A stretch of DNA of 37,215 nucleotides from contig CANFPU010000020.1 of the NCBI GenBank assembly GCA_947448955.1, forward strand, positions 1 through 37,215. Reading direction: 5' to 3'. Positions 1,060 through 37,215 of this stretch are shown here, one piece after another. This DNA is from Burkholderiales bacterium (GTDB taxonomy: Bacteria > Pseudomonadota > Gammaproteobacteria > Burkholderiales > Burkholderiaceae_C). The first letter of the stretch is position 1, and each line of letters opens with the position of its first letter. The translations under genes and the position numbers were made by a program. Below the pieces are notes generated by a model. That model ran no database searches. It worked only from the letters and a program-made list of their open reading frames with translations, and was not told where the DNA came from.

Positions 1060-2193
1060 TCAGGAGGGAGAGGCTGGTTTGGCGGCAATGCCGGCCTTGG
1101 CCCGCCGCGGAGCCCGTGCCATTGCGGCCGGTTCGGACTTCGCTGAGGAGGGCGGAAGCAGGCCTTCGTGCAGCGCCACATGCTCGAGCGCAGTCTCGAA
1201 ACGAGCACGCGAGGCCGTGGCAACTTGGCGCAAGTAGGCATGCAGTTCAGCGTCGGCCGCGTTGAGGTCTTCGCACGCCGAGCTATAGGCTTCGAAGTGC
1301 AAGAGCTGCAGTAGCAGTTCGGCCACATGGCGCGGGCACTCGCAAGCGATCGTCGACGACAGGTTCACGAACTCAGCGAGGGCTGCGTCGTTCCAGCGGC
1401 GCGGCGGCACGGGATGGGCTCCAGGCTCGGGCAGCTCGACTGCGGACTGCCGTGCCGATGCCGTCCGGGCTGACAGGCTGTTCAGCCATTGCGCCACCAC
1501 GGCGTCGGGCTGCGGCTCTCGTAGCAAGGCCGTGCCAGACGTCGCCAAAGCCTCGCACACGGGGTCGGCGGCAAAGCTGTACAGGACGGCTTTCGGCACC
1601 CCTACAAAGGCCGGAGCCCCCGCTTCGACGGCCGCTAGCCAGCCCCCGTGCAGTTGCGGCTCATGGAAGAGCAAAGCGTCGATCTGCGAACCCTGCAATC
1701 CGTCGGCGGCCTGCGCGATGTTGTCGAATGGGCCCAGCAGCACCACGGCCCGGTCTAGCCGACGCAGCAGCTGCGGTCTTTGCAATCGGGTGCCCAGTGC
1801 CGCGCCGACCACCGCCAGCCGCCAGGCCCGCATGGGCGGCGCCTGGCCCATCGCAGCGTGTTCATGGCGCTGGGTGGCCGCCAACGCCTGTTCATGCGTG
1901 GAGGCGACAGCCTGCAGTTGCGGCATGGCCAGCGGTGCCAGGCTTCCAATGGCGTGACCCAGGTCGGTGAGTTGTTTGATCAACGCCAGCCGCTGAACGT
2001 CATCGGCCGAGTACAGGCGCTGGCCGCTTGGGGTCAGCGCTGGCTGGGTCAACTGGTAGCGGCGCTCCCACACACGCAGCGTTGCCACCGGCATGCTCAA
2101 CATGCGCGCCACGGCGCCGCTTCGGTGGAGCGACCGAGCTGACGCGCCTGACGCAGGCCCGGGTGGCTGTACAGGTGACTTCGCTGCGTTCAC
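1060..2193 (-). CDS. MerR-family transcriptional regulator (LitR/CarH-like architecture)
   Basis: The 377-residue protein has an N-terminal MerR winged helix-turn-helix. The segment ARMLSMPVATLRVWERRY (about 29-46) is the recognition region, followed by the wing PSGQRLYSADDVQRLALIK. A middle part (about 120-230) reads like a Rossmann-type sensor domain, and a helical C-terminal part contains CECPRHVAELLLQL (about 285). This layout resembles the light-responsive LitR/CarH group, where the C-terminal half binds adenosylcobalamin. The cobalamin signature D-x-H-x-x-G is not visible here, so cobalamin binding should not be assumed. It is divergent from a HiPIP-photolyase operon, which is the usual target of such regulators (inference). 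A Pro/Ser/Ala-rich N-terminus and a basic Ala-rich tail flank the domains. Regulation of the neighbours is inferred from position only. Confidence 0.85.
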   Translation of the reverse strand: MNAAKSPVQPPGPASGASARSLHRSGAVARMLSMPVATLRVWERRYQLTQPALTPSGQRLYSADDVQRLALIKQLTDLGHAIGSLAPLAMPQLQAVASTHEQALAATQRHEHAAMGQAPPMRAWRLAVVGAALGTRLQRPQLLRRLDRAVVLLGPFDNIAQAADGLQGSQIDALLFHEPQLHGGWLAAVEAGAPAFVGVPKAVLYSFAADPVCEALATSGTALLREPQPDAVVAQWLNSLSARTASARQSAVELPEPGAHPVPPRRWNDAALAEFVNLSSTIACECPRHVAELLLQLLHFEAYSSACEDLNAADAELHAYLRQVATASRARFETALEHVALHEGLLPPSSAKSEPAAMARAPRRAKAGIAAKPASPS

Positions 2194-2205
2194 AAGCTTC
2201 CTAGG

Positions 2206-2277
2206 TTGACTCTGATTTGACGCCGATTATAGCGATTTCATTGAAAATGTTTCTGAATGAACTTCTTTTGAATCGCT
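2206..2277. promoter_or_regulatory. Divergent promoter/operator region, merR versus HiPIP-photolyase operon
   Basis: On the minus strand a perfect TATAAT -10 hexamer lies at 2226-2231, about 32 bases before the merR start. No good TTGACA lies 17 bases upstream, which fits regulated promoters. On the plus strand TTGACT (2206-2211) and TATAGC (2228-2233) are 16 bases apart and could serve the HiPIP operon with a leader of about 200 nt. Two inverted repeats sit here: TTCATT (2237-2242) with AATGAA (2256-2261), and AGCGATT (2231-2237) with AATCGCT (2271-2277). The local AT-rich tract contrasts with the surrounding GC-rich DNA. These are plausible MerR binding sites, but none is proven. Confidence 0.5.
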
Positions 2278-2444
2278 AATGGCGTACACTTTGAGCCGTC
2301 ATGACGCGCTTTTGCTGCGCTTTGTGTTGTGGAGTCGTCCCGGGGTTACCGGGGTCAAAGGTGGCGGTCTGTCGGCTCCAGCGCGGTCCTCTGCGTCTGA
2401 CCTTTTCTTCAATGTGTCTCATCACTCCTCTCGAGGAATCTCCA

Positions 2445-2759
2445 ATGAATCAATCAGTCCCCCGCCGTGTTTTTCTGTTGACGCTGGCCAGTTCCGGCGC
2501 AGTGCTGGCCACTGGTGCCCAAGCCCAAGCCCAGGCCCAGGTCGACGAAAAGGATCCCAAGGCCGCCGGCCTGGGCTACGTGGCCAATGCCAAGCGCGTC
2601 GATGTGAAGAAGCACCCCAAGTTCGCCGTCAGCCAGAACTGCGCCAACTGCGCGCTGTACCAAGGCAAGCCTGCCGACAAGGTCGGCGGCTGCCCGCTTT
2701 TCGCGGGCAAACAGGTGGCCAGCGCTGGCTGGTGCAGCGCCTGGGCGAAGAAGGCATGA
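2445..2759 (+). CDS. High-potential iron-sulfur protein (HiPIP), Tat-exported
   Basis: The 104-residue precursor starts with a twin-arginine signal: SVPRRVFLLTLASSG, then a cleavage region ATGAQAQA. The mature domain carries the four HiPIP cysteines at C66, C69, C83 and C97 (C-x2-C-x13-C-x13-C), which bind a [4Fe-4S] cluster, and the typical CALYQGK and GWCSAW contexts. HiPIPs are periplasmic one-electron carriers between the cytochrome bc1 complex and terminal oxidases or photosynthetic reaction centres. The ATG at 2445 is preferred because GAGGA lies at 2433-2437 and the Tat motif follows directly; the frame is also open further upstream. It is first in a plus-strand run leading to photolyase genes and divergent from merR. 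A short AQAQAQAQ run marks the signal cleavage area. Confidence 0.95.
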   Translation: MNQSVPRRVFLLTLASSGAVLATGAQAQAQAQVDEKDPKAAGLGYVANAKRVDVKKHPKFAVSQNCANCALYQGKPADKVGGCPLFAGKQVASAGWCSAWAKKA

Positions 2760-2830
2760 ACGACGGGGCGGGTCGCGAGGGTTTGCGGTGACCCACCGCG
2801 CCGCTGAGCCCCTTGCCGACGAGGCCGCGC

Positions 2831-4423
2831 ATGGCTGAGCTACGCGCGCTGGTCGTGGTGCTGGGCGACCAGCTGGACCTCGACGCAGCGGCGTTCGACG
2901 GGTTCGATGCGAGCGGCGACGCTGTTTGGATGGCTGAGGTCGTGGAAGAGTCCACCCATGTGTGGTCGAGCAAACCGCGCACAGCGTTGTTCTTGTCGGC
3001 CATGCGCCACTTCGCGCTGGCGCTTGACGCCGCCCGCCGACCGCTTCATTACACCCGCCTGGAGGCGCCCGGTAACGCCGGCAGTTTGGCAGGGCAGTTG
3101 CAAGCCGATATCTTGCGGCTGAAGCCTTCCCGCCTCGTGATGACTGCGCCGGGCGACTGGCGCGTGCTGGAAGCGATCAAGGCCGTCGCCGAGCGCAGCG
3201 GTCTGTCGCTGGATGTTCGCGAGGACCGCCACTTCTTCAGCAGCATGGCTGATTTCGCGGCGCATGCCAAAGGCCGCAAGTCCTTGCGCATGGAGTACTT
3301 CTATCGCGAGCAACGAAAGCGGCACGATGTCTTGATGCAGGGCGATGAGCCCATCGGTGGTCAGTGGAACTTCGACGCTGACAACCGCGAGGCTTTTGGT
3401 GCTGGCGGACCGGGCGCTGTGCCGCCGCGCACCCGCTTCGAGCCTGATGACGTCACGCGCGAGGTCATTGCGTTGGTGAACACCCGCTTCGCCCATCACC
3501 CGGGTCGATTAGACAGCTTTGCCTGGCCGGTGACGCGAGCGCAGGCGCTGCGGTCGCTGCATGCCTTCATCCAGGATCGCCTGCCGCTGTTCGGCCGTTT
3601 TCAGGATGCGATGTGGCCAGGCGACCCGTGGCTTTACCACGCCCACCTGTCGGCAGCGCTCAACCTGAAGTTGTTGAATCCGCGCGAGGTGGTGACGGCG
3701 GCTGAAGCGGCGCACCGTGACGGACATGCCACTTTGTCCAGTGTCGAAGGGTTCATTCGGCAGATTTTGGGCTGGCGCGAGTATGTGCGCGGTGTCTATT
3801 GGACGCAGATGCCGGCTTACCTGGAACGTAACGCGCTCGATGCTCAGCAGGACTTGCCGGCCTGGTTCTGGACCGGCGACACCGACATGGCCTGCCTGCG
3901 GGATGCGTTGACGCAGACGCTTGCGCACGGCTACGCCAACCATATTCAGCGCCTGATGGTCACGGGCCTTTACACCTTGATGCTCGGTGTGCAGCCGAAG
4001 CAGGTCCACGCTTGGTACCTGGCGGTCTATGTCGATGCAGTGGAGTGGGTGGAACTGCCCAACACCCTGGGCATGAGCCAGTACGCCGATGGCGGTGTGA
4101 TGGGCAGCAAGCCCTACATCGCCACCGGCAAATACATCCAGCGCATGAGCCCTCACTGCAAGGGCTGCCGCTACGACCCCGCGCAGCGCAGTGGCGACAG
4201 TGCTTGCCCTTTCACCACGCTGTACTGGGACTTCTTGATGCGCCATGCATCGGCGCTGGCCCGCAACCCGCGCATGGCGCTGCAGGTGAAGAACGTGGCG
4301 CGACTGACGGACGCGCAGAAGCAGGCGGTGAGCGAACGCGCAGCGGCCATCCGGCTCGGCGGGGTCGGCCTCCAAACCGTCGCCAAGGTGGACTTACTGA
4401 GCTTCGACGAGGCAACAGATTGA
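2831..4423 (+). CDS. phrB: FeS-type bacterial cryptochrome/(6-4) photolyase
   Basis: The 530-residue flavoprotein belongs to the FeS-BCP group of the photolyase/cryptochrome family, whose studied members repair (6-4) photoproducts in DNA using light, FAD and a lumazine antenna. The N-terminal alpha/beta antenna domain starts at LRALVVVLGDQL. The C-terminal FAD domain contains LSSVEGFIRQILGWREYVRG and NHIQRLMVTGLY. The four cluster cysteines are C355, C443, C446 and C459. Their spacing of 88, 3 and 13 equals that recalled for Agrobacterium PhrB (C350, C438, C441, C454), so a [4Fe-4S] cluster is expected. The ATG at 2831 has GAGG about 8 bases upstream; in-frame TTG at 2813 and GTG at 2788 are possible but less likely. 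Its stop overlaps the start of the DUF393 gene (TGATG). Confidence 0.95.
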   Translation: MAELRALVVVLGDQLDLDAAAFDGFDASGDAVWMAEVVEESTHVWSSKPRTALFLSAMRHFALALDAARRPLHYTRLEAPGNAGSLAGQLQADILRLKPSRLVMTAPGDWRVLEAIKAVAERSGLSLDVREDRHFFSSMADFAAHAKGRKSLRMEYFYREQRKRHDVLMQGDEPIGGQWNFDADNREAFGAGGPGAVPPRTRFEPDDVTREVIALVNTRFAHHPGRLDSFAWPVTRAQALRSLHAFIQDRLPLFGRFQDAMWPGDPWLYHAHLSAALNLKLLNPREVVTAAEAAHRDGHATLSSVEGFIRQILGWREYVRGVYWTQMPAYLERNALDAQQDLPAWFWTGDTDMACLRDALTQTLAHGYANHIQRLMVTGLYTLMLGVQPKQVHAWYLAVYVDAVEWVELPNTLGMSQYADGGVMGSKPYIATGKYIQRMSPHCKGCRYDPAQRSGDSACPFTTLYWDFLMRHASALARNPRMALQVKNVARLTDAQKQAVSERAAAIRLGGVGLQTVAKVDLLSFDEATD

Positions 4424-4887
4424 TGACTGAACCCCCTGTTGAGCGACCGCAGCTGACCGTGCTATACAACGGCGCCTGCCCGCTCTGTCGACGAGAGATC
4501 GGCCTTTATCGCGGCCTGCGGCCGCTGCAGCCGGACTCGCCGGTGAGTTTTGCCGATGTCAATGACACGGCATGGCCATTGCCGCCCGGCACCACCCGCG
4601 AGCAACTGCTGGCACGCTTTCATGTGCGCTGTGGCGACGGCACACTGCTCAGCGGCGCTCGGGCCTTTCTCGCGCTGTGGGCCGCATTGCCCGGTTGGCG
4701 CTGGCTGGCCTTGGCTGGGCGCATGCCAGGCGCCGCTTGGGTGATGGAGCGCGCCTACCGACGTTTCCTGCGCTGGCGGCCGATGTTGCAGCGCTGGGCG
4801 TCTCGACTCGACCGGCCTTCGCTGGAGCGGCCATCGCTCGACCGGCAGTCTCTGGACCGGCCGAGCCAGCGCGATGCTGGTTGGTGA
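4423..4887 (+). CDS. DUF393 (DCC family) thiol-disulfide oxidoreductase-like protein
   Basis: The 154-residue protein has the DUF393/DCC signature near its start: LTVLYNGACPLCRREIGLY, with C19 and C22 forming a CPLC pair in a thioredoxin-like fold. Family members are predicted thiol-disulfide oxidoreductases of unknown substrate and are often found beside photolyase genes. The start codon overlaps the photolyase stop, so translation is probably coupled. The C-terminus carries four near-perfect pentapeptides of the form L-D/E-R-P/Q-S encoded by a 15-bp repeat (4807-4866), which lies outside the conserved domain. The protein is soluble, with no clear signal peptide. Confidence 0.85.
   Translation: MTEPPVERPQLTVLYNGACPLCRREIGLYRGLRPLQPDSPVSFADVNDTAWPLPPGTTREQLLARFHVRCGDGTLLSGARAFLALWAALPGWRWLALAGRMPGAAWVMERAYRRFLRWRPMLQRWASRLDRPSLERPSLDRQSLDRPSQRDAGW
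4807..4866 (+). repeat. 15-bp tandem repeat, four copies, in the DUF393 gene
   Basis: Four diverged 15-base units encode LDRPS, LERPS, LDRQS and LDRPS. They keep the frame and add a charged, Pro/Ser-rich tail to the protein. Confidence 0.75.
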
Positions 4888-4931
4888 CCACTCTGTTTGA
4901 CCTCACTCACTTCACAGCTTTGGAATTCAGC

Positions 4932-5663
4932 ATGTCCGAAATCGTCCTCATCACCGGTGCCAGTGGCGGCATCGGCCGCGCGCTGGCGCGCCAGATGCAT
5001 GGTCAAGGCTACCGCGTTGCCGCGGTCAGCCGCGACCTCAACCGCCTGACCGATGTGCCGGACGCCGTGCACATCGCCGCCGACACCACCACGCCCGATG
5101 GCGCCGCGCTGGCCATCGCCGCTTGCTAAGAAGCACTCGGGGCTGTCCCCACATTGCTGGCGCACTGTGTGGGTAACACGCTGATCGCGCCGCTTCATCG
5201 CACCCGAGCGGACGCCTATCGCGAGATCTTGCGGGTCAACCTTGACAGCGCTGTGTTCATGCTGCAGGCCTGGATTACGGCGTTGAATCGCACACCTGGC
5301 GCCGCCGTCTTTGCAAGCTCGGTGGTGGCGCGCATTGGTGTGGCCAATCATGAAGCCATTGCGGCCGCCAAGGGCGGTGTCGAAGCCTTGGTGCGCAGCG
5401 CCGCGGCCACCTATGCGACCCAAGGCCTGCGCATCAATGCGGTGGCGCCAGGCATGATTGATACGCCAATGACGGCCGGGATGCTGAAGATGCCCGCGAT
5501 GCGAGAGGGCGCTGCGCGGCAATACCCGCTGGGTGGCGTGCAGACGGCCGACCAGGTGGCCGATGTGATGGCCTGGCTGCTCGGTGACGGTGCGGCACGC
5601 TTGACCGGCCAGGTGATCGCGGTGGATGGCGGTTTCACCACCGTCCGCCCGCTCGTGAAGTAA
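4932..5663 (+). pseudogene. Short-chain dehydrogenase/reductase, interrupted by an in-frame TAA
   Basis: The frame starting at ATG 4932 encodes an SDR Rossmann fold: IVLITGASGGIGRALARQM near the N-terminus. It meets TAA at 5127-5129 after codon 65 and continues in the same frame without shift to 5663. The continuation has SDR features: NTLIAPLHRT, NLDSAVFML, FASSVVARIG, NAVAPGMIDTPM and VDGG near the end. A single CAA to TAA change would explain the stop. The expected active-site Tyr of YxxxK is Ile in HEAIAAAKGG; this replacement is known in some SDR lineages, so it need not be damage. A TTG at 5154 could start a C-terminal fragment lacking the NAD(P)-binding Gly motif. A sequencing error is the main alternative. 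It lies between the DUF393 and small Cys-rich genes of the same operon. Confidence 0.8.
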
Positions 5664-5686
5664 GACCGACACCCAAGGAGTTCTGA

Positions 5687-5848
5687 ATGAACGAAGACCC
5701 ACGCTGCTGCGGCAGCGGCACCTGCATCATCGACATGGAAGGCCGCTGCTGGTGTGGTCAGCAGTGGGATGGCGAAAAAATGTGCAGTCCTGCTTTGGTC
5801 AACCCGCCAGCAGCCACCGCAACGCCGGAGACGAAGGACAAAGACTGA
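5687..5848 (+). CDS. Small Cys-rich protein of unknown function
   Basis: This is a 53-codon gene. ATG 5687 has AAGGAG at 5675-5680, a strong ribosome binding site. The product opens with a cluster of six cysteines: C7, C8, C13, C21, C23 and C33, within RCCGSGTC, GRCWCGQQWDGEKMC, followed by a Pro/Ala/Thr tail. Such spacing suggests metal or cluster binding or a disulfide-rich fold. There is no signal peptide. I do not recognise a named family. Its position between an SDR and a photolyase suggests a link with the light/oxidative stress operon. Confidence 0.75.
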   Translation: MNEDPRCCGSGTCIIDMEGRCWCGQQWDGEKMCSPALVNPPAATATPETKDKD

Positions 5849-5866
5849 TGCGCGAATTCATTCAGC

Positions 5867-5892
5867 GAATCTAATCGGCGAACCTAATCGGC
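5867..5892 (+). repeat. 13-bp tandem duplication before the second photolyase gene
   Basis: GAATCTAATCGGC (5867-5879) is followed at once by GAACCTAATCGGC (5880-5892), with one mismatch, and then by a partial third GAATTC. It lies in the 77-base gap upstream of the photolyase start. Confidence 0.6.
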
Positions 5893-5925
5893 GAATTCAA
5901 TGTCAAGCAGCACGAGGTTGGCAAG

Positions 5926-7410
5926 ATGACGGGCACGACCGCGCTGGTTTGGTTCAAACGTGACTTGCGCGTGCGCGATCACGCGCCGTTGCGAGAAGCC
6001 ATGCGCTTCGACAGCGCGGCCGGCCTGTTGGTGATCGAGCCGCAGTGGTTGGCGAGCCCGGAGTGCGACCCACGCCATGTTGGCTTCCTGCTCGACAGCG
6101 CGGCCGAGTTGCAGCACGGCTTGGCGTCGCGGGGACTAACGCTGATTGTGCGCTGCGGTTCCATGCCGCAAGTGCTGCAGACGCTGCGGCACGAGTTCGC
6201 TTTTACCCACCTGTTCAGCCACGAAGAAACCGGCCCGGGTTGGAGCTACGCCCGCGATCTGGCCGTCGCCGACTGGTGCCGCAGCCAAGGCGTGAACTGG
6301 ATCGAATCGCCACAGACCGGCGTGGTACGTCGCTTGCGCTCGCGTACCGGGTGGGCCGGGCGGTGGGCGCAGCGCATGAATGCACCCGAGACCGCGGAGG
6401 GTCCGGCGGCTTGTGGCATCGGCGCGGCCACCGCATTGAAGGCATCGGTGCTGCCCACCTTGCGTGAGCTGGGCCTGCCCGACTTGCGCGCGGCGTTGCC
6501 ACCGGGCGGCGAGCGTGCTGCGTGGGCCACGCTTGAAAGTTTTCTGGACGGCCGCGGGCGCGATTACCGCCGCGCGATGTCCAGCCCGATGACCGCCGCC
6601 GAAGGTTGTAGCCGGCTGAGCGCGCACCTGGCATTCGGCACGATTTCGATGCGCTGCGTCCATCAAGCCACCGAAGCGCGGATCGCGACCACGCCGGATC
6701 GTGGCTTGAGCTATGCATTGCGAGGCTTCGCCAGCCGCTTGCGCTGGCACTGTCATTTCATGCAAAAGCTCGAAGACGAGCCTGCCATCGAATGGCGCAA
6801 CGTGGCGCGAAGTGTCGACGGGTTGCGTGCGGGCGACGGCGTGAACGAGGGCGCGATCGACCGTGAGCGCCTGCAGGCCTGGTGCGAAGGCCGCACCGGC
6901 TTCCCGATGGTCGATGCCTGCATGCGCCAATTGCGGGCCACCGGCTGGTTGAACTTTCGCATGCGCGCCATGCTGGTCAGCTTTGCGTCTTACCACCTGT
7001 GGTTGCACTGGCGCGAGCCAGGACTGTTTTTGGCGCGCCAGTTTCTCGACTTCGAGCCCGGCATCCACTGGAGCCAGATGCAGATGCAGTCGGGCACCAC
7101 CGGCATCAACACCCTGCGCATCTATTCGCCGGCCAAGCAAGCGAGCGACCACGATCCGCAAGGCCATTACATCCGGCAGTGGGTGCCGGAGATCGGAACA
7201 CCGGCCTATCCGCGCCCGATCGTCGAGGAACGTGCGGCGGTGGCGGCGGCGAAAGACCAGTTGTACGGTCTGCGTCGGACCCGCGAGGCGCAGACCGAAG
7301 CCAAGGCCATCCAGGACAAGCATGGTTCACGCATGAGTGGCTTGCCACCGACTTCGAACCGGAAGCGCCGGATCCCGGCCGCGCCGGATGGCCAAGGCCA
7401 GTTGTTCTAG
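5926..7410 (+). CDS. Deoxyribodipyrimidine photolyase/cryptochrome family protein
   Basis: The 494-residue flavoprotein begins with the class I photolyase antenna domain: [17 protein letters not shown] (residues 6-22). The FAD domain shows [51 protein letters not shown] and [19 protein letters not shown]. The end of the FAD domain reads [20 protein letters not shown] rather than the usual ADAAPYFRIFNP region of E. coli PhrB. It therefore belongs to a proteobacterial subgroup of the superfamily, and CPD repair is likely but not certain. GAGG about 9 bases before ATG 5926 supports the start. It is a second, unrelated-class photolyase in the same run as the FeS enzyme, which fits repair of both main UV lesions in one regulon. 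Confidence 0.9.
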
Positions 7411-30468: not shown

Positions 30469-32880
<2,412 letters not shown>

Positions 32881-33435
32881 ATGGCCAACGTACCGAATGA
32901 CGCGGTGGATGTGTTGCGCGCCCTGGTGCTTGAGGTTCGTGCGCTGCGGCAATTGGCTGAAGCCGCGATTCGGCAGGTGCCATTGAGCCGACTGGTGGCG
33001 CCACCCGGCGCGGCGGGTGCGGGTGCGGGTGCCGCTGCCGGTGCCGGTGCCGGTGCGGCGGGCGAAGGCGCAGCGGCTGCGGGTGCTGCGGGTGCTGCAG
33101 GTGCTGCAGGTGCTGCGGCTGCGGGCGCAGGTGCGGCGGCGGCAGGTGCTGCGGGTGCAGCCGCGGCGGTGGACTTGGCCGATTTGCCGGCGCTCACCAG
33201 CTTGGCGACGGTCCCGGTATTGACCGACCTGTTGCCGGCGTTGGAGGATCTGCAGATAGAGGCTGCTGTCGTCCTGCCAGAGGTTGACCAGTCGTTGGCA
33301 CAGATGGACTTGACCATGGTCAGTGTCGATTCAGCCTCGGCCTCGCTAACCCCTGCGCCTGACAAACTGCCGCCGGTCAAGGAGGCCATGGCCAAAGCCA
33401 GCGCAGACGCCCAGACCAAGCTCGACAGTCTTTGA
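32881..33435 (+). CDS. Unknown 184-residue protein with Ala/Gly-only central tract
   Basis: I do not recognise this gene. GGAGG at 32867-32871 gives a strong ribosome binding site for ATG 32881. The N-terminal 40 residues are a predicted amphipathic helix (DVLRALVLEVRALRQLAEAA). Residues about 43-96 consist almost wholly of Ala and Gly with one Glu, encoded by GGTGCT/GGTGCG repeats. The C-terminal half is Leu/Pro/Asp-rich (DLADLPALTSLATVPVLTDL) and ends in a Lys/Ala helix. There is no signal peptide, no Cys and no clear membrane helix. The next gene starts 19 bases later, so both are likely co-transcribed. The helix-linker-helix layout suggests a partner or assembly role for the very large downstream protein, which is inference only. 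Confidence 0.7.
   Translation: MANVPNDAVDVLRALVLEVRALRQLAEAAIRQVPLSRLVAPPGAAGAGAGAAAGAGAGAAGEGAAAAGAAGAAGAAGAAAAGAGAAAAGAAGAAAAVDLADLPALTSLATVPVLTDLLPALEDLQIEAAVVLPEVDQSLAQMDLTMVSVDSASASLTPAPDKLPPVKEAMAKASADAQTKLDSL
33007..33171 (+). repeat. GGTGCN/GCGGCN low-complexity tract encoding poly-Ala/Gly
   Basis: Imperfect 3- and 6-base repeats of GGT-GCN and GCN encode only Ala and Gly, apart from a single Glu. Such tracts change length easily by slippage, so the protein length may vary between strains. Confidence 0.75.
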
Positions 33436-33454
33436 CGCTGCCAAGCGCCAACCC

Positions 33455-36400
33455 ATGCAACTCGTCACCCGAACCCAGACCGCACTGACCAGCGGTGCGA
33501 GCAAGGTCAGCGCGGCCATCTCTGAGGCGGGTGGCACCTTGAAGACGCAGATCGGTGAGGGGTTGACGGCGACCAGTGAAGCACTGGGCGCGGTGCAGGA
33601 TAGGCTCAAAGGCATCGTCACCAAGCTGCTCGAATTGGGCCCTTTGCTGGATCCGACCGGTCTGCTGCCGCCTTTGACTGCAGCGTTGGGGCGCTGCCAA
33701 GCCGACTTGCAGACTTTGGCCAGCACTTTGTCTGGGCTGGGTGACCGCTTGTTGACCGCAGGGCAGAGCTTGGGCGGGGCCAGTACCGAGTTACAAACGG
33801 CGCTGGCCATCGTGACCGCACTGCCCGACCGGCTGTTGGCAGCACAACCCGATGTCTCAGGCCTGACCGAGCAATTGCAGGCCTTGTTGCAGCGAGGCCA
33901 GGGGATTGCGCTGCGGGCGGCCGATGTCGAGCCGCGTCTCAACCGGTTTGCCAGCCAGCTACAAGCCCTGCTGCCAGAACTCAATGAGCTGCGCGATGTG
34001 GCGGCCCAGACGGTGGTGTCGATGGACACCAATGTGGCAGTGGAAGCGGCGCATGCGCGTGCTCAAGCGATGGTCCGTGGCGCGGAGACCGCTGCACTGG
34101 CTGAACTCAACCTGCTCAAGACCGAAGTCCATGAAGGCGCCGATGCGCTACAGGCTGACTTGAGGACGTTGGCCCAGGTTGTGCCGGACACCCTGGACCG
34201 TGCGGTCGAGGCGGTGGATGCGTCGGTGCAGGAGGTATTCGATGCACTCGACCGGGTGTTTGACCGGCTCGATGTGGCGGTGGATACGCTACGTCAGGCG
34301 CTGACCGAACTGCAGGACCAAGCCAAGCTGTTGCACGACCGTTGCGACGATGCGGGCGAGCTGTTGCAGATGCCGCTGGACAAGGCTCAGGCGGCGATCG
34401 CTTTGCTGGTGTCGCAGGTTGACGAGGTCGGCAAAGCGGTTGACGAAGTGCTGGCGCTGGTCGATGCGCAGGTGGGTCGCTTGCAAGCCATGATCGACAC
34501 CATCCGCACGGCCATCGACAAGGTGGTGGCCGCGGTGGTCGAGGTGCTGGCCGAACTCTCAGACATCTTGAAAGAGCTTGATGCGGAGATCGAGGGTGTC
34601 AAGGCCACGCTGTTGTCGATACCTCAGCTGCTCGAAGACACTGTCAAGCCGCAGATCGACGCCGCTGAAGCTTTTGTGCAAGAGGTACGACAGCGCATCG
34701 TCAACTTTATGCAGCAGGCCGACAGCGCCTTGTCTGCGGCCAGCGACGAAATCGATCAAGCCGAAGCCTGCTGCGACACCGCAATCGCCACCTGCACGAA
34801 ATACCAGATGCGGGTGCCGCCGCTGATCGCTGCACGGCTGTTGTTCGTCGGTGTCAAATCCAGTCTGCCTGGCATTCGCACCGCGATCGCCACGGCACGA
34901 ACCACCGTGCGCACTGCCGGCAAAACCGCGCTGGGCTTGATGGATCTGGCCATCAAGGCCGTTGGCACGCTGCGTGGATTGTTGGAGCAGGCGATTGTCC
35001 AAGTCAAGACGGTGGTCAACCGGCTGCTCGGCTTGCTCGCGCAGGTGCAAGCGGCGCTGGCACAGGGTCAGGAAAAATTGGCCCAGGTCGCCGATGAACT
35101 GAAGGCGCAAGCCGAGGCCATCAAGGCCAAACCCGATCCGTTGATGGCCCAGGTTCGGGCTGCGATCGACGCCTTTTTGGCGAAAGCCAAGCCTCGGGAG
35201 TCGGTGGCAGATGTGCGCGCAAAAGTCGATGGGCTGAACCAGACGGCGTTGGGCCCTGTTCGAAAACGTCTGGCCGACGGTCTTTCCAGCACCCACTTGT
35301 CGATCGACGCTGCGGCGGCCAAGCTGCCGCCGCTGGCCAACCCGGTGCAGGACCAGATCGATGCGATGAGGGCTCGTTTGGCCGAGTTGCGCCTATCGGC
35401 TCAGAAACCCAAGGAACAGGCGCTGGCCTTGATCGAGCAACTGCGGGGGCGAATCGACCTCACCTTGACGCAAGGCCGGCGGTCGCTGGACGTGGCGCTG
35501 GACCATGCGTTCGAACTGTTGGAGCATGGCCTCAGCAACGCGGCCAAGATGGTCGCCAACTTCAGCCTGCCCAATCTGCCTAGATTGCCGGGACTGCCTG
35601 GCCTGTCATTGGGGGCAGGCGGGACCGGTGGGGCTGGCGGCGGGTTGTCCTTGCCGGGGCTATCCGGTTTGTCCGGTATTTCCGGTCCGTCGGGCTTGTC
35701 CGGCCTGTCCGGCCTTTCCGCAGGCGCTCTCGGCGGGGGTGGAGCTGGCGGAGGCCTATCCTTGTCGGGTCTGTCCGGCCTGGCAGCGAGCGTGCCGGGT
35801 CTGGGCGAGGCCGGCGGCGCAATGTCGTGGCCTGGAAGTGCCGATTTGCTCAGTGATCTGGGCGCTGCGGTGTCGCGAGCGGGCTCCGTCAACCAGGCAC
35901 TGGCAGCCGCCTGTGATGCGGCAGCCGATCTGGTCAACGAGGCTGCGGCCGTGGCAGACGAGTGGATCCAATCCCTGCCTGCGGATGCCAGTGGCATGTT
36001 GGCGCGATTCCAATTGCCGCTGCATTGTTTGATGTGCCAGAAAGTCATTGAGATTTCCGCCGATGCCCAGTCGAAGCTGGAGAGCGCAGCCAAGGGCGCT
36101 GTTCAAGGGGCGGAGGGTCAGGCGAAAGCGCTGGCAGATGCCGCGCAGGCGCAGGGCGAAAGTGCCCTCCAATCCCCCGAAAGCATCCCGCAGCAGCTTG
36201 AAGCCGCAGCGGAAGCCGCCCAATCCAAACTCGCTGAGGCGATGGCCTCGGCTGAGGGTGCTGGACAGCAGGCTCAAAAGGATTTGGTGGCATCGCTGGT
36301 CGACAAGGCTTCCGGCGGGTTCCCGGTGCTTTGTTTGGAATGCGGCCCTCAGCTTCGTGCCAAGCTGGAAAGTGCAGCCGGCCCGATGGCCGATGCCGTC

Positions 36401-37215
36401 AAAGATTTACAGGTGCAAGCCGACGAGTTGGCGGGCGCTTGGAGCGGTCTGGGCGACAGTGCCCGCGAAGCCATTGAGTTGCCGTTAGAAGAAACTCGTC
36501 ACGACGCTGAAGCCGCGGCTGGAGAGGCGGACCAGGCGAGCCAGGCCGTCGAAACTGAATTGGCTGAGGCGATGCAGCCTATGCAGTCGATGTCAGACGA
36601 CATGACCGAAGCACTGGCCGCTGCTGATGAGGGTGCGCAGCAGACGCAGCAGCAATTGGCGGCGTCGCTGGTCGATGTGGCTGCGGCGGCTGATTCGTTG
36701 CGTGAAGCGCTGTCTGAAGCTTCTGCTGAGATGCAGAAGTCCTGCGACGAAGTGCAGGCCAAGGTCACCGATTTGCGCGATCAGGCGCAGGCTGAAGTCG
36801 ACAGCGCCAAGCAATCGGTGACCTCTGTCCAAGCCGCCGTGCAGGCCACGCGAGTTGATGTGGTGTCGGCAGAGTCCATTGTCGATGCCGAGGTCGAGCG
36901 CCGCGGTGGCGAACCTCGGGTCCCGCCGGCCCCGGCCCCGGCCCCTGCACCAGCAGCACCTGCGGCTGAAGCACCAGCAGCGCCTGCGGCTGAAGCACCA
37001 GCAGCGCCTGCGGCTGAAGCACCAGCAGCGCCTGCGGCAGAAGCGCCAGCAGCGCCTGCGGCAGAAGCGCCAGCAGCGCCTGCGGCTGAAGCACCGGCCG
37101 CGCCTGCGGCAGAGGCACCGGTCGCGCCTGCGGCTGAAGCGCCAGCAGCGCCTGCGGCAGAAGCGCCAGCAGCGCCTGCGGCAGAAGCGCCAGCAGCGCC
37201 TGCGGCTGAAGCACC
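33455..37215 (+). CDS. Very large unknown coiled-coil-like protein, 3' end outside the window
   Basis: The frame from ATG 33455 stays open for 1253 codons to the window end without a stop. I recognise no named family. Residues 1-700 are almost entirely helical and rich in Ala, Leu, Glu, Gln, Asp and Val with heptad spacing (for example QDQAKLLHDRCDDAGELLQM), like apolipoprotein- or tropomyosin-type amphipathic repeats. Residues about 706-790 form a Gly-Leu-Ser linker. CxxC pairs lie at C858/C861 (CLMC) and C960/C963 (CLEC), each followed by KLESAA. A further Cys group is C439, C440, C447. The visible C-terminus is an Ala-Pro-Ala-Glu octapeptide repeat. No signal peptide or membrane helix is seen, and aromatic residues are rare. 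No clear ribosome binding site precedes the ATG; translation may be coupled to the gene 19 bases upstream. Confidence 0.75.
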   Translation, partial: MQLVTRTQTALTSGASKVSAAISEAGGTLKTQIGEGLTATSEALGAVQDRLKGIVTKLLELGPLLDPTGLLPPLTAALGRCQADLQTLASTLSGLGDRLLTAGQSLGGASTELQTALAIVTALPDRLLAAQPDVSGLTEQLQALLQRGQGIALRAADVEPRLNRFASQLQALLPELNELRDVAAQTVVSMDTNVAVEAAHARAQAMVRGAETAALAELNLLKTEVHEGADALQADLRTLAQVVPDTLDRAVEAVDASVQEVFDALDRVFDRLDVAVDTLRQALTELQDQAKLLHDRCDDAGELLQMPLDKAQAAIALLVSQVDEVGKAVDEVLALVDAQVGRLQAMIDTIRTAIDKVVAAVVEVLAELSDILKELDAEIEGVKATLLSIPQLLEDTVKPQIDAAEAFVQEVRQRIVNFMQQADSALSAASDEIDQAEACCDTAIATCTKYQMRVPPLIAARLLFVGVKSSLPGIRTAIATARTTVRTAGKTALGLMDLAIKAVGTLRGLLEQAIVQVKTVVNRLLGLLAQVQAALAQGQEKLAQVADELKAQAEAIKAKPDPLMAQVRAAIDAFLAKAKPRESVADVRAKVDGLNQTALGPVRKRLADGLSSTHLSIDAAAAKLPPLANPVQDQIDAMRARLAELRLSAQKPKEQALALIEQLRGRIDLTLTQGRRSLDVALDHAFELLEHGLSNAAKMVANFSLPNLPRLPGLPGLSLGAGGTGGAGGGLSLPGLSGLSGISGPSGLSGLSGLSAGALGGGGAGGGLSLSGLSGLAASVPGLGEAGGAMSWPGSADLLSDLGAAVSRAGSVNQALAAACDAAADLVNEAAAVADEWIQSLPADASGMLARFQLPLHCLMCQKVIEISADAQSKLESAAKGAVQGAEGQAKALADAAQAQGESALQSPESIPQQLEAAAEAAQSKLAEAMASAEGAGQQAQKDLVASLVDKASGGFPVLCLECGPQLRAKLESAAGPMADAVKDLQVQADELAGAWSGLGDSAREAIELPLEETRHDAEAAAGEADQASQAVETELAEAMQPMQSMSDDMTEALAAADEGAQQTQQQLAASLVDVAAAADSLREALSEASAEMQKSCDEVQAKVTDLRDQAQAEVDSAKQSVTSVQAAVQATRVDVVSAESIVDAEVERRGGEPRVPPAPAPAPAPAAPAAEAPAAPAAEAPAAPAAEAPAAPAAEAPAAPAAEAPAAPAAEAPAAPAAEAPVAPAAEAPAAPAAEAPAAPAAEAPAAPAAEA
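35573..35810 (+). repeat. Gly-Leu-Ser/Pro-rich linker repeats in the large protein
   Basis: Codons here give LPGLPGLSL, then seven consecutive Gly-x-Ser triplets (GLS GLS GIS GPS GLS GLS GLS), poly-Gly, and GLSLSGLSGLA. The TCCGG core recurs in the DNA. It separates the long helical part from the CxxC-bearing part. Confidence 0.75.
36026..36676 (+). repeat. Diverged internal module duplication with CxxC
   Basis: Copy 1 begins at CLMC (36026) and copy 2 at CLEC (36332); both continue to KLESAA about 8-14 residues later. A second shared block, EAMASAEGAGQQ...VASLVD (about 36236-36304), recurs as EALAAADEGAQQ...AASLVD (about 36608-36676), 372 bases later. The modules are therefore tandem and diverged. 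Confidence 0.65.
36947..37215 (+). repeat. 24-bp tandem repeat encoding APAAPAAE, at least 11 copies
   Basis: Eleven complete 24-base units fill 36947-37210 and a twelfth starts at 37211, leaving the window. The consensus is GCACCAGCAGCGCCTGCGGC with TGAA, giving the octapeptide APAAPAAE; some units use GCAGAA, GCCAGC or GTCGCG variants (one APVAPAAE). It extends a disordered Pro/Ala tail like those that span cell walls or act as flexible linkers. Confidence 0.9.

Follow-up and report, generated by a model that had tools for sequence, protein, structure and literature searches.

A gene pair for a giant helical protein and a small partner, very probably linked to the T6SS-b type VI secretion system in Burkholderiales

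A described parallel to the genes treated here comes from the contractile particles of Streptomyces, in which the genes for a tape-measure-related cargo, Sle1, and its small partner, Sle2, stand next to that of the sheath (PMC13277306). Regarding type VI secretion systems (T6SSs), the accessible sections on Paraburkholderia phymatum place the T6SS-b cluster between tssB (Bphy_5978) and tssA (Bphy_5997), assign it to i4a, and term the metabolic genes inside the operon intriguing (PMC8356804), and the excerpted study of mutants of this species reports that T6SS-b acts in bacterial competition (PMC5732942). In addition, DUF2169 appears in excerpts of two papers as a T6SS adaptor/chaperone family (PMC11883445, PMC13373197). 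In this report we describe a pair of adjacent genes, encoding a small protein (gene 1) and a giant helical protein (gene 2), at the right end of a contig from a Burkholderiales bacterium, and we consider it very likely that this pair is linked to T6SS-b. The window is the entire contig (CANFPU010000020.1, here G000:C20), which comprises 37,215 bases and belongs to a draft genome, G000, in 324 contigs.

Gene 1 (32881..33435, plus strand, with an ATG at 32881 and a stop at 33433-33435) encodes 184 amino acids, and gene 2 (33455..37215, plus strand) begins with an ATG at 33455 and has no stop to 37213, so that its product counts at least 1253 residues and is open at the contig end. An earlier note on this DNA had reported two plus-strand open reading frames (ORFs), the second unstopped for 1253 codons, and both are present as described. 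Its view that they belong to no recognised family also stands, as neither protein has a curated match beyond coiled-coil cross-matches, and conservation of the pair in other Burkholderiales, named there as a point to check, is borne out by a total of 11 pair-bearing genomes, so that the pair is not confined to this genome. In all 11, gene 1, or at least its conserved C-terminal module, stands directly upstream of gene 2. The nearest relative is RGQD01000046.1, a contig of a betaproteobacterial metagenome-assembled genome of the same genus, where the pair has an unchanged position next to metabolic genes shared with the window; the sister genome, as it is called below and which is counted among the 11, is G007, of the same genus as G000, and its contig G007:C391 agrees with RGQD01000046.1 in length and in match. 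Identity of the pair between window and sister is 85-86% over the alignments.

One line of evidence for the link to T6SS-b is the distribution of gene 2 in three draws of genomes, namely 399 from the family (queried with 700 residues of gene 2), 399 from the order (profile search), and 264 from the class; since scoring for gene 2 in these large draws was limited to 2-4 candidates in each genome, copies outside the T6SS-b clade may be missed. The clade itself is defined by TssC: in the family draw, 11 genomes lie at 74-100% identity to G000 (74-82% for the 10 others), the rest standing at 59% or less among the matches listed, and it appears to correspond to T6SS-b, as judged from the gene content of the relatives' clusters and not from comparison with the P. 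phymatum sequence. Gene 2 gave nine matches in this draw, of which eight, counting that in G000 itself, are strong (E at most 2.6e-24) and spread over seven genera, and the ninth, in G244 (4.9e-4), was discarded, as the family profile A4 did not recover it. The gene is thus present in 8 of the 11 clade genomes and in none of the 388 others, 128 of which have another TssC among the matches listed (Fisher 1.1e-14 against the 388 and 5.9e-11 against the 128, neither value corrected for relatedness). In the three remaining clade members (G204, G051, G273) gene 2 was not found with all candidates scored, and tblastn detected no copy of the pair in their cluster loci.

The order draw points the same way. 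Of its 14 gene 2 matches, three are strong (in G000, G470 and G468, each at 2.8e-101 or below), and the other 11, short, partial and near threshold (E 7.3e-5 to 7e-4), were discarded, as was a second match in G470 (2.2e-7) that does not have the cysteine motif described below. Ten genomes have a TssC of at least 74% identity, and gene 2 occurs in these same three; the seven others are without it, all candidates scored. When G000 is set aside, the count is two of nine clade genomes versus 0 of 389 (Fisher 4.6e-4). Profiles found no copy of gene 1 or gene 2 in the stretches retrieved upstream of tssB from the seven negative genomes and in G510 (TssC 67%), and gene 2 was likewise negative in G510 and in seven non-clade genomes scored in full. 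In the class draw only G000 is strong among 11 matches; the other ten were discarded, the next best being G922 (5.7e-10, 139 positions), where the motif is absent. Taken together, 11 of 21 T6SS-b genomes carry the pair, sister included, and four of the ten without it are less than 90% complete.

Moreover, the pair occurs at either end of the T6SS-b cluster, depending on the genome. In G250 and G468 some 260 bp separate it from tssB, which lies downstream; it stands 12 bp after tssA in G248, behind tssK-tssL-tssM-tssA (identified with Pfam and NCBIfam), and on the opposite strand, ~1.3 kb beyond the last TssA match, in G470. In G169, G198 and G082 it is encoded away from the cluster (at ~90 kb versus 811 kb on a single contig in G198), and in G392 and G195 the contig ends are compatible with a linked or an unlinked pair; as a hint, the pair of G392 follows the ribosomal gene rplQ, the slot that holds T6SS-b in G082 and G198. 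The fullest clusters read tssB-C-hcp-E-F-G-H-vgrG-MORN-DUF4280-small-SBP-SDF-racemase-SDF-tssJ-K-L-M-A, where SBP is a solute-binding protein and SDF a dicarboxylate symporter. G250 and G195 have clusters without the whole metabolic insert, SBP through second SDF, and in G468 and the sister G007 the two symporters have no racemase between them.

In the window genome itself, the single TssC is on contig C158, a contig of 9.7 kb with the core genes tssB-C-hcp-E-F-G-H; the second symporter, tssJ-K-L and the start of tssM are on C247, and the remaining tssM with tssA on C33 (the search of this cluster left out vgrG to the first symporter). C158 opens with an in-frame TPA repeat that ends in DLAAQAQKAGLK and a stop (the in-frame opening reads ...TPATPADLAAQAQKAGLK stop), and tssB follows ~0.7 kb later. 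The T6SS contig of the sister, C189, opens in frame with a Pro/Ala-rich stretch ending ...PPLKDAAGQSQQLADALRSAS and a stop. This end resembles those of G169, G198 and G082, three of the seven complete homologues, which finish in SPLKDAAAAAAEKQKLLDMLKQAAGDAPKG or closely similar letters; in the remaining four complete homologues, and in G000, the end differs from SPLKDAAAAAAEKQKLLDMLKQAAGDAPKG. Because the contig ends fit, with a Pro/Ala tail before tssB, gene 2 probably runs across the gap, between contigs not joined in the assemblies, into the T6SS-b operon in both G000 and G007. Further genes had been expected past the right edge of the window, and these very probably are a type VI secretion operon.

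Several details of these clusters are recorded in their own right. The operon of the relatives (L044:2377-7068 and equivalents) holds a solute-binding protein, two dicarboxylate symporters and an Asp/Glu racemase. The sister tssB (L039:1040-1476, G007) matches in two overlapping frames and appears frame-shifted in the draft assembly, and the T6SS-b tssC of G470 (L108, G470:C4:245254-246729) has one in-frame TGA. In G737, G681 and G709, small genomes with T6SS-b and no pair, another, similar-looking gene of 224-245 codons stands directly upstream of tssB (L129:799-1473, L130:6406-7143 and L131:11086-11796).

The pair and the machine also diverge together. Between the window and the nine non-sister genomes, identity is 21-36% for gene 2, 47-60% for TssF and 75-81% for TssC, and over the 11 genomes gene 2 distances follow those of TssF (Mantel r 0.94) and TssC (r 0.76), with none of 10000 permutations as high, a correlation that may come partly from species relatedness. 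The gene 2 and T6SS trees show matching main groups; in gene 2, G195 and G250 sit on long branches, and the order of G248 and G392 differs. On a TssC tree of 15 clade members, of which 4 have no pair and from which six of the negative genomes are absent, the pair label needs five changes and is not significantly clustered (61 of 500 shuffles as low), and five changes are compatible with one gain and several losses. Compared with the sister, gene 1 has a ratio of nonsynonymous to synonymous substitution rates (dN/dS) of 0.17, and residues 1-700 of gene 2 one of 0.12; two neighbouring genes give 0.08-0.09 and four T6SS genes 0.014-0.18. These low values, together with the conservation across genera, argue that the pair is more than a chance arrangement.

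Regarding the protein encoded by gene 2, the parts named in the earlier note (amphipathic helix, Gly-Leu-Ser linker, CxxC modules and Pro/Ala repeat tail) are all present, and only some of them define the family. Residues 1-700 (33455..35554; this and all following features on the plus strand) are a conserved core that is all-helical according to the 11-genome alignment and a low-confidence AlphaFold2 model, and its hydrophobicity has a period of 3.58 residues, as in an amphipathic helix. The best-conserved stretch, residues 425-490 (34727..34924; its 40-residue blocks have a mean majority fraction of 0.68-0.70 across the 11 genomes), encloses an invariant C-x6-C (C440 and C447; 34772..34795) with the motif C..AI..C..Y, found in 11 of 11 gene 2 sequences. 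The fetched loci contain 2191 ORFs of at least 150 codons; 37 of these, with overlapping copies included in the count, have the motif, and all 37 are gene 2 copies. Overall, 24 residues of the 720 compared are invariant over the 11 genomes, including five prolines (67, 132, 307, 390 and 455) and the two cysteines. Downstream of the core lie a Gly-Leu-Ser-rich stretch (residues ~705-791; 35567..35827), of which the sister has almost nothing, and a region (36026..36343) that contains CLMC (858-861) and CLEC (960-963) and is absent there altogether. As the sister also lacks the greater part of the Ala/Gly tract in gene 1, these parts appear to be lineage-specific. The window sequence closes in a 24-bp tandem repeat of 11.2 copies coding for AEAPAAPA (36947..37215), which continues off the contig, and the sister's contig breaks in this same array.

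Two observations on homologues belong here: the gene 2 of G195 (L026:1921-4738) ends after 687 residues, with a further matching piece downstream in another frame, either a break or an assembly error; and the G250 product (L025) has another C-x-x-C at residues 695-698, although the sister is without the CxxC stretches of the window.

The protein has no signal peptide, as judged from its N-terminal sequence with no predictor run, and no membrane helix is apparent in the window copy (maximum 19-residue Kyte-Doolittle mean 1.48; no dedicated predictor run). The AlphaFold2 model of residues 1-700 is nearly all helix (predicted local distance difference test, pLDDT, 53; two sequences) and too weak for a structure search. 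In the model of residues 300-520 three long helices meet near the conserved prolines 390 and 455 (mean pLDDT 72); a Foldseek search with it gave generic helical matches, none at 0.001.

The small protein is preceded by a Shine-Dalgarno-like GGAGG (32868..32872), read from the sequence, and contains an Ala/Gly tract (~33007..33168) that is far shorter in the sister. Alignment with seven homologues reveals, behind this variable linker, a conserved C-terminal module of ~70 residues (33214..33432; LEDLQIEA..VLPE...SL..MDLT...), which tblastn also located in G195, G468 and G470. Six gene 1 sequences gave in Pfam one sub-threshold match, to DUF3391 (E 0.8), and nothing else at E cut-offs of 1 or 0.1, DUF4157 included; the window protein gave three NCBIfam matches, far below cut-off (best 18 of 250 bits), and a PDB sequence search nothing convincing (best E 0.43). 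Profile comparison finds gene 1 and gene 2 unrelated (probability 0.5%).

A strong profile match of the large protein to a known family, which the earlier note had set as its refutation, was not found in Pfam, NCBIfam, PHROGs or PADLOC, where gene 2 has only generic coiled-coil matches; PDB sequence searches gave coiled-coil cross-matches only. Altogether 42 Pfam families are matched, many of them coiled-coil, and the family Baculo_PEP_C is matched by eight of nine gene 2 members (best 2.1e-18). With this family, residues 1-700 of the window protein score 38.9 against a cut-off of 38 bits and the whole protein 36, which we read as cross-matching. ZorA matches in PADLOC (best 1.1e-9), which span positions 316-593 of a profile of 699, raised the Zorya system as a candidate. 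With no search made for ZorB, this was set aside because the matches cover the long tail of ZorA, not its membrane part, and the window protein is without a clear membrane helix.

As regards function, the pair is probably an accessory or cargo module of T6SS-b, and for its mechanism we tentatively prefer, as short of probable, a helical cargo and its adaptor. The pair would probably head the T6SS-b operon in G000; gene 2 would be a long helical protein made in the cytoplasm and taken up as cargo inside the contractile apparatus or on it, as for tape-measure-related effectors of other contractile injection systems, with its long Pro/Ala-rich tail as a flexible docking part. Gene 1 would be the adaptor or chaperone of gene 2, its C-terminal module standing behind an Ala/Gly or Pro/Ala linker. 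By analogy with Sle1/Sle2, such a cargo with its adaptor best fits the pattern of gene 2, which changes more quickly than TssC or TssF, was not detected in half of the T6SS-b genomes and may be encoded elsewhere; this pattern also speaks for cargo or an accessory over a core part of the machine. Type VI systems are not known to have a tape-measure-like component, and the bolder proposal that T6SS-b in part of the order holds a tape-measure-like giant helical protein in its Hcp tube, as ruler, cargo or both, along with a dedicated adaptor, is one we regard as unlikely.

Several observations weigh against the cargo and adaptor proposal. Pfam and NCBIfam scans found no known T6SS cargo or adaptor domain, and no curated effector, PAAR or Rhs domain, in gene 2 or in gene 1 (6 sequences). 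The tape-measure matches are weak, as any coiled coil gives (PHROGs best 4.1e-7, among several unrelated coiled-coil families), and tblastn found no match in 50,697 phage records at a threshold of 0.001. The conserved prolines point to a fold of helical hairpins and not to a single unbroken rod, and the gene 2 proteins of G248, G169, G198 and G082 each have one more hydrophobic place (19-residue mean 2.07-2.40), where membrane contact is possible. The ORF lists of the loci show no conspicuous third gene that is conserved and might confer immunity, no dedicated search having been made; and export of gene 2 is a prediction by analogy.

The absence of a clear membrane helix in the window protein, the spread of conservation over a 700-residue core in which no variable toxin-like domain is recognised, and the generic matches to coiled-coil proteins such as SMC and SpiroCoCo all agree with a different role, nearly as likely, in which gene 2 stays in the cytoplasm as a scaffold or regulator of T6SS-b assembly that tethers or positions sheath, baseplate or ClpV, gene 1 serving as the link and nothing being exported. 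We consider this a serious possibility, although such a part would have to be dispensable, as the pair is not found in ten T6SS-b genomes, and it would have to act when encoded as far from the cluster as in G198. Of the roles listed in the earlier note, a cytoplasmic scaffold and a large secreted or translocated protein are therefore both still in play, now with T6SS-b as the machine, and nothing points to a filament. The three long helices modelled for the conserved block, together with the hydrophobic places of the four homologues, would also suit a secreted protein that T6SS-b delivers and that acts on membranes in the way of long-helix pore formers: the top Foldseek matches include ClyA pore chains (E 0.016-0.018), and one of nine members weakly matches MakE (6.3e-6). 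As designed bundles, chemoreceptors and SMC arms score alike, no match reaches 0.001, and the window protein is without a strongly hydrophobic stretch, we judge a pore former improbable.

The pair might also be a passenger that shares genomic islands with T6SS-b and does not work with it. Its separation from the cluster in three of the 11 pair-bearing genomes, with the contigs leaving linkage open in G392 and G195, is what such a passenger would show; yet in the draws the unlinked copies too occur only in T6SS-b genomes, the pair distances track those of the T6SS, and the pair stands at either cluster end in different genomes, and we give this explanation little weight. Least probable of all is a degraded remnant of a phage tail operon (tape measure and chaperone), as the weak tape-measure matches might suggest: the dN/dS values indicate purifying selection, the pair is conserved with T6SS-b, and searches of viral contigs, plasmids and phages returned no match to it (at 1e-3 for phage and plasmid records). 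The giant size and rapid evolution of the pair, the way in which it follows T6SS-b across genera, unlinked copies included, and its absence from about half of the carriers seen make it a strong candidate for a new cargo or for an assembly factor.

Elsewhere in the window, a MerR-like regulator lies near two photolyase/cryptochrome-like genes (1060-7410), which we take to resemble a light-response cluster. The pair had been said to differ sharply in composition from its metabolic neighbours, and this holds for the proteins and not for the DNA, whose G+C content (0.62-0.66 versus 0.60-0.69 in the neighbours) does not differ.

Compared with Sle1/Sle2, the genes here likewise set a large coiled-coil protein in tandem with a small partner and have a remote tape-measure flavour. 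The pair stands beside the sheath gene in G250 and G468, and by inference in G000 and G007, as for Sle1/Sle2, whereas it is next to tssA in G248 and G470 and elsewhere in G169, G198 and G082. The order of large and small gene is reversed between the two systems, Sle1 has a predicted C-terminal membrane hairpin where none is apparent in the window protein, and Sle2 has a DUF4157 that is not seen in gene 1 (PMC13277306). Like phage tail tape measure proteins, gene 2 is very long, helical and associated with a contractile tail-like machine, with weak PHROGs matches; unlike them, it has no significant sequence match to phage records. Gene 1, for its part, is small and next to a large putative cargo, like members of the T6SS adaptor/chaperone families DUF4123, DUF1795 and DUF2169/Tvp. 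Gene 1 and its homologues match none of these families.

With respect to the machine, P. phymatum T6SS-b has after vgrG, like most relatives here, YwqK/MORN, a PAAR-like protein, a small protein, a solute-binding protein, a dicarboxylate symporter, an Asp/Glu racemase and a second symporter, and the available sections of that account make no mention of the gene pair (PMC8356804). G007 and G468 are without the racemase between the symporters, like a reported Janthinobacterium strain, and G719, from another family of the same order (TssC 78%), has T6SS-b without the pair. A literature search by titles and abstract openings, mostly outside subscription journals, returned no description of such a pair. 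Draft assemblies hide genes of this kind, as both pair-bearing assemblies in the genus break inside the repeat. The T6SS-b machine is thus already known and the pair module, as far as seen, is new, and it would offer a direct test of whether type VI tubes can hold a tape-measure-like protein.

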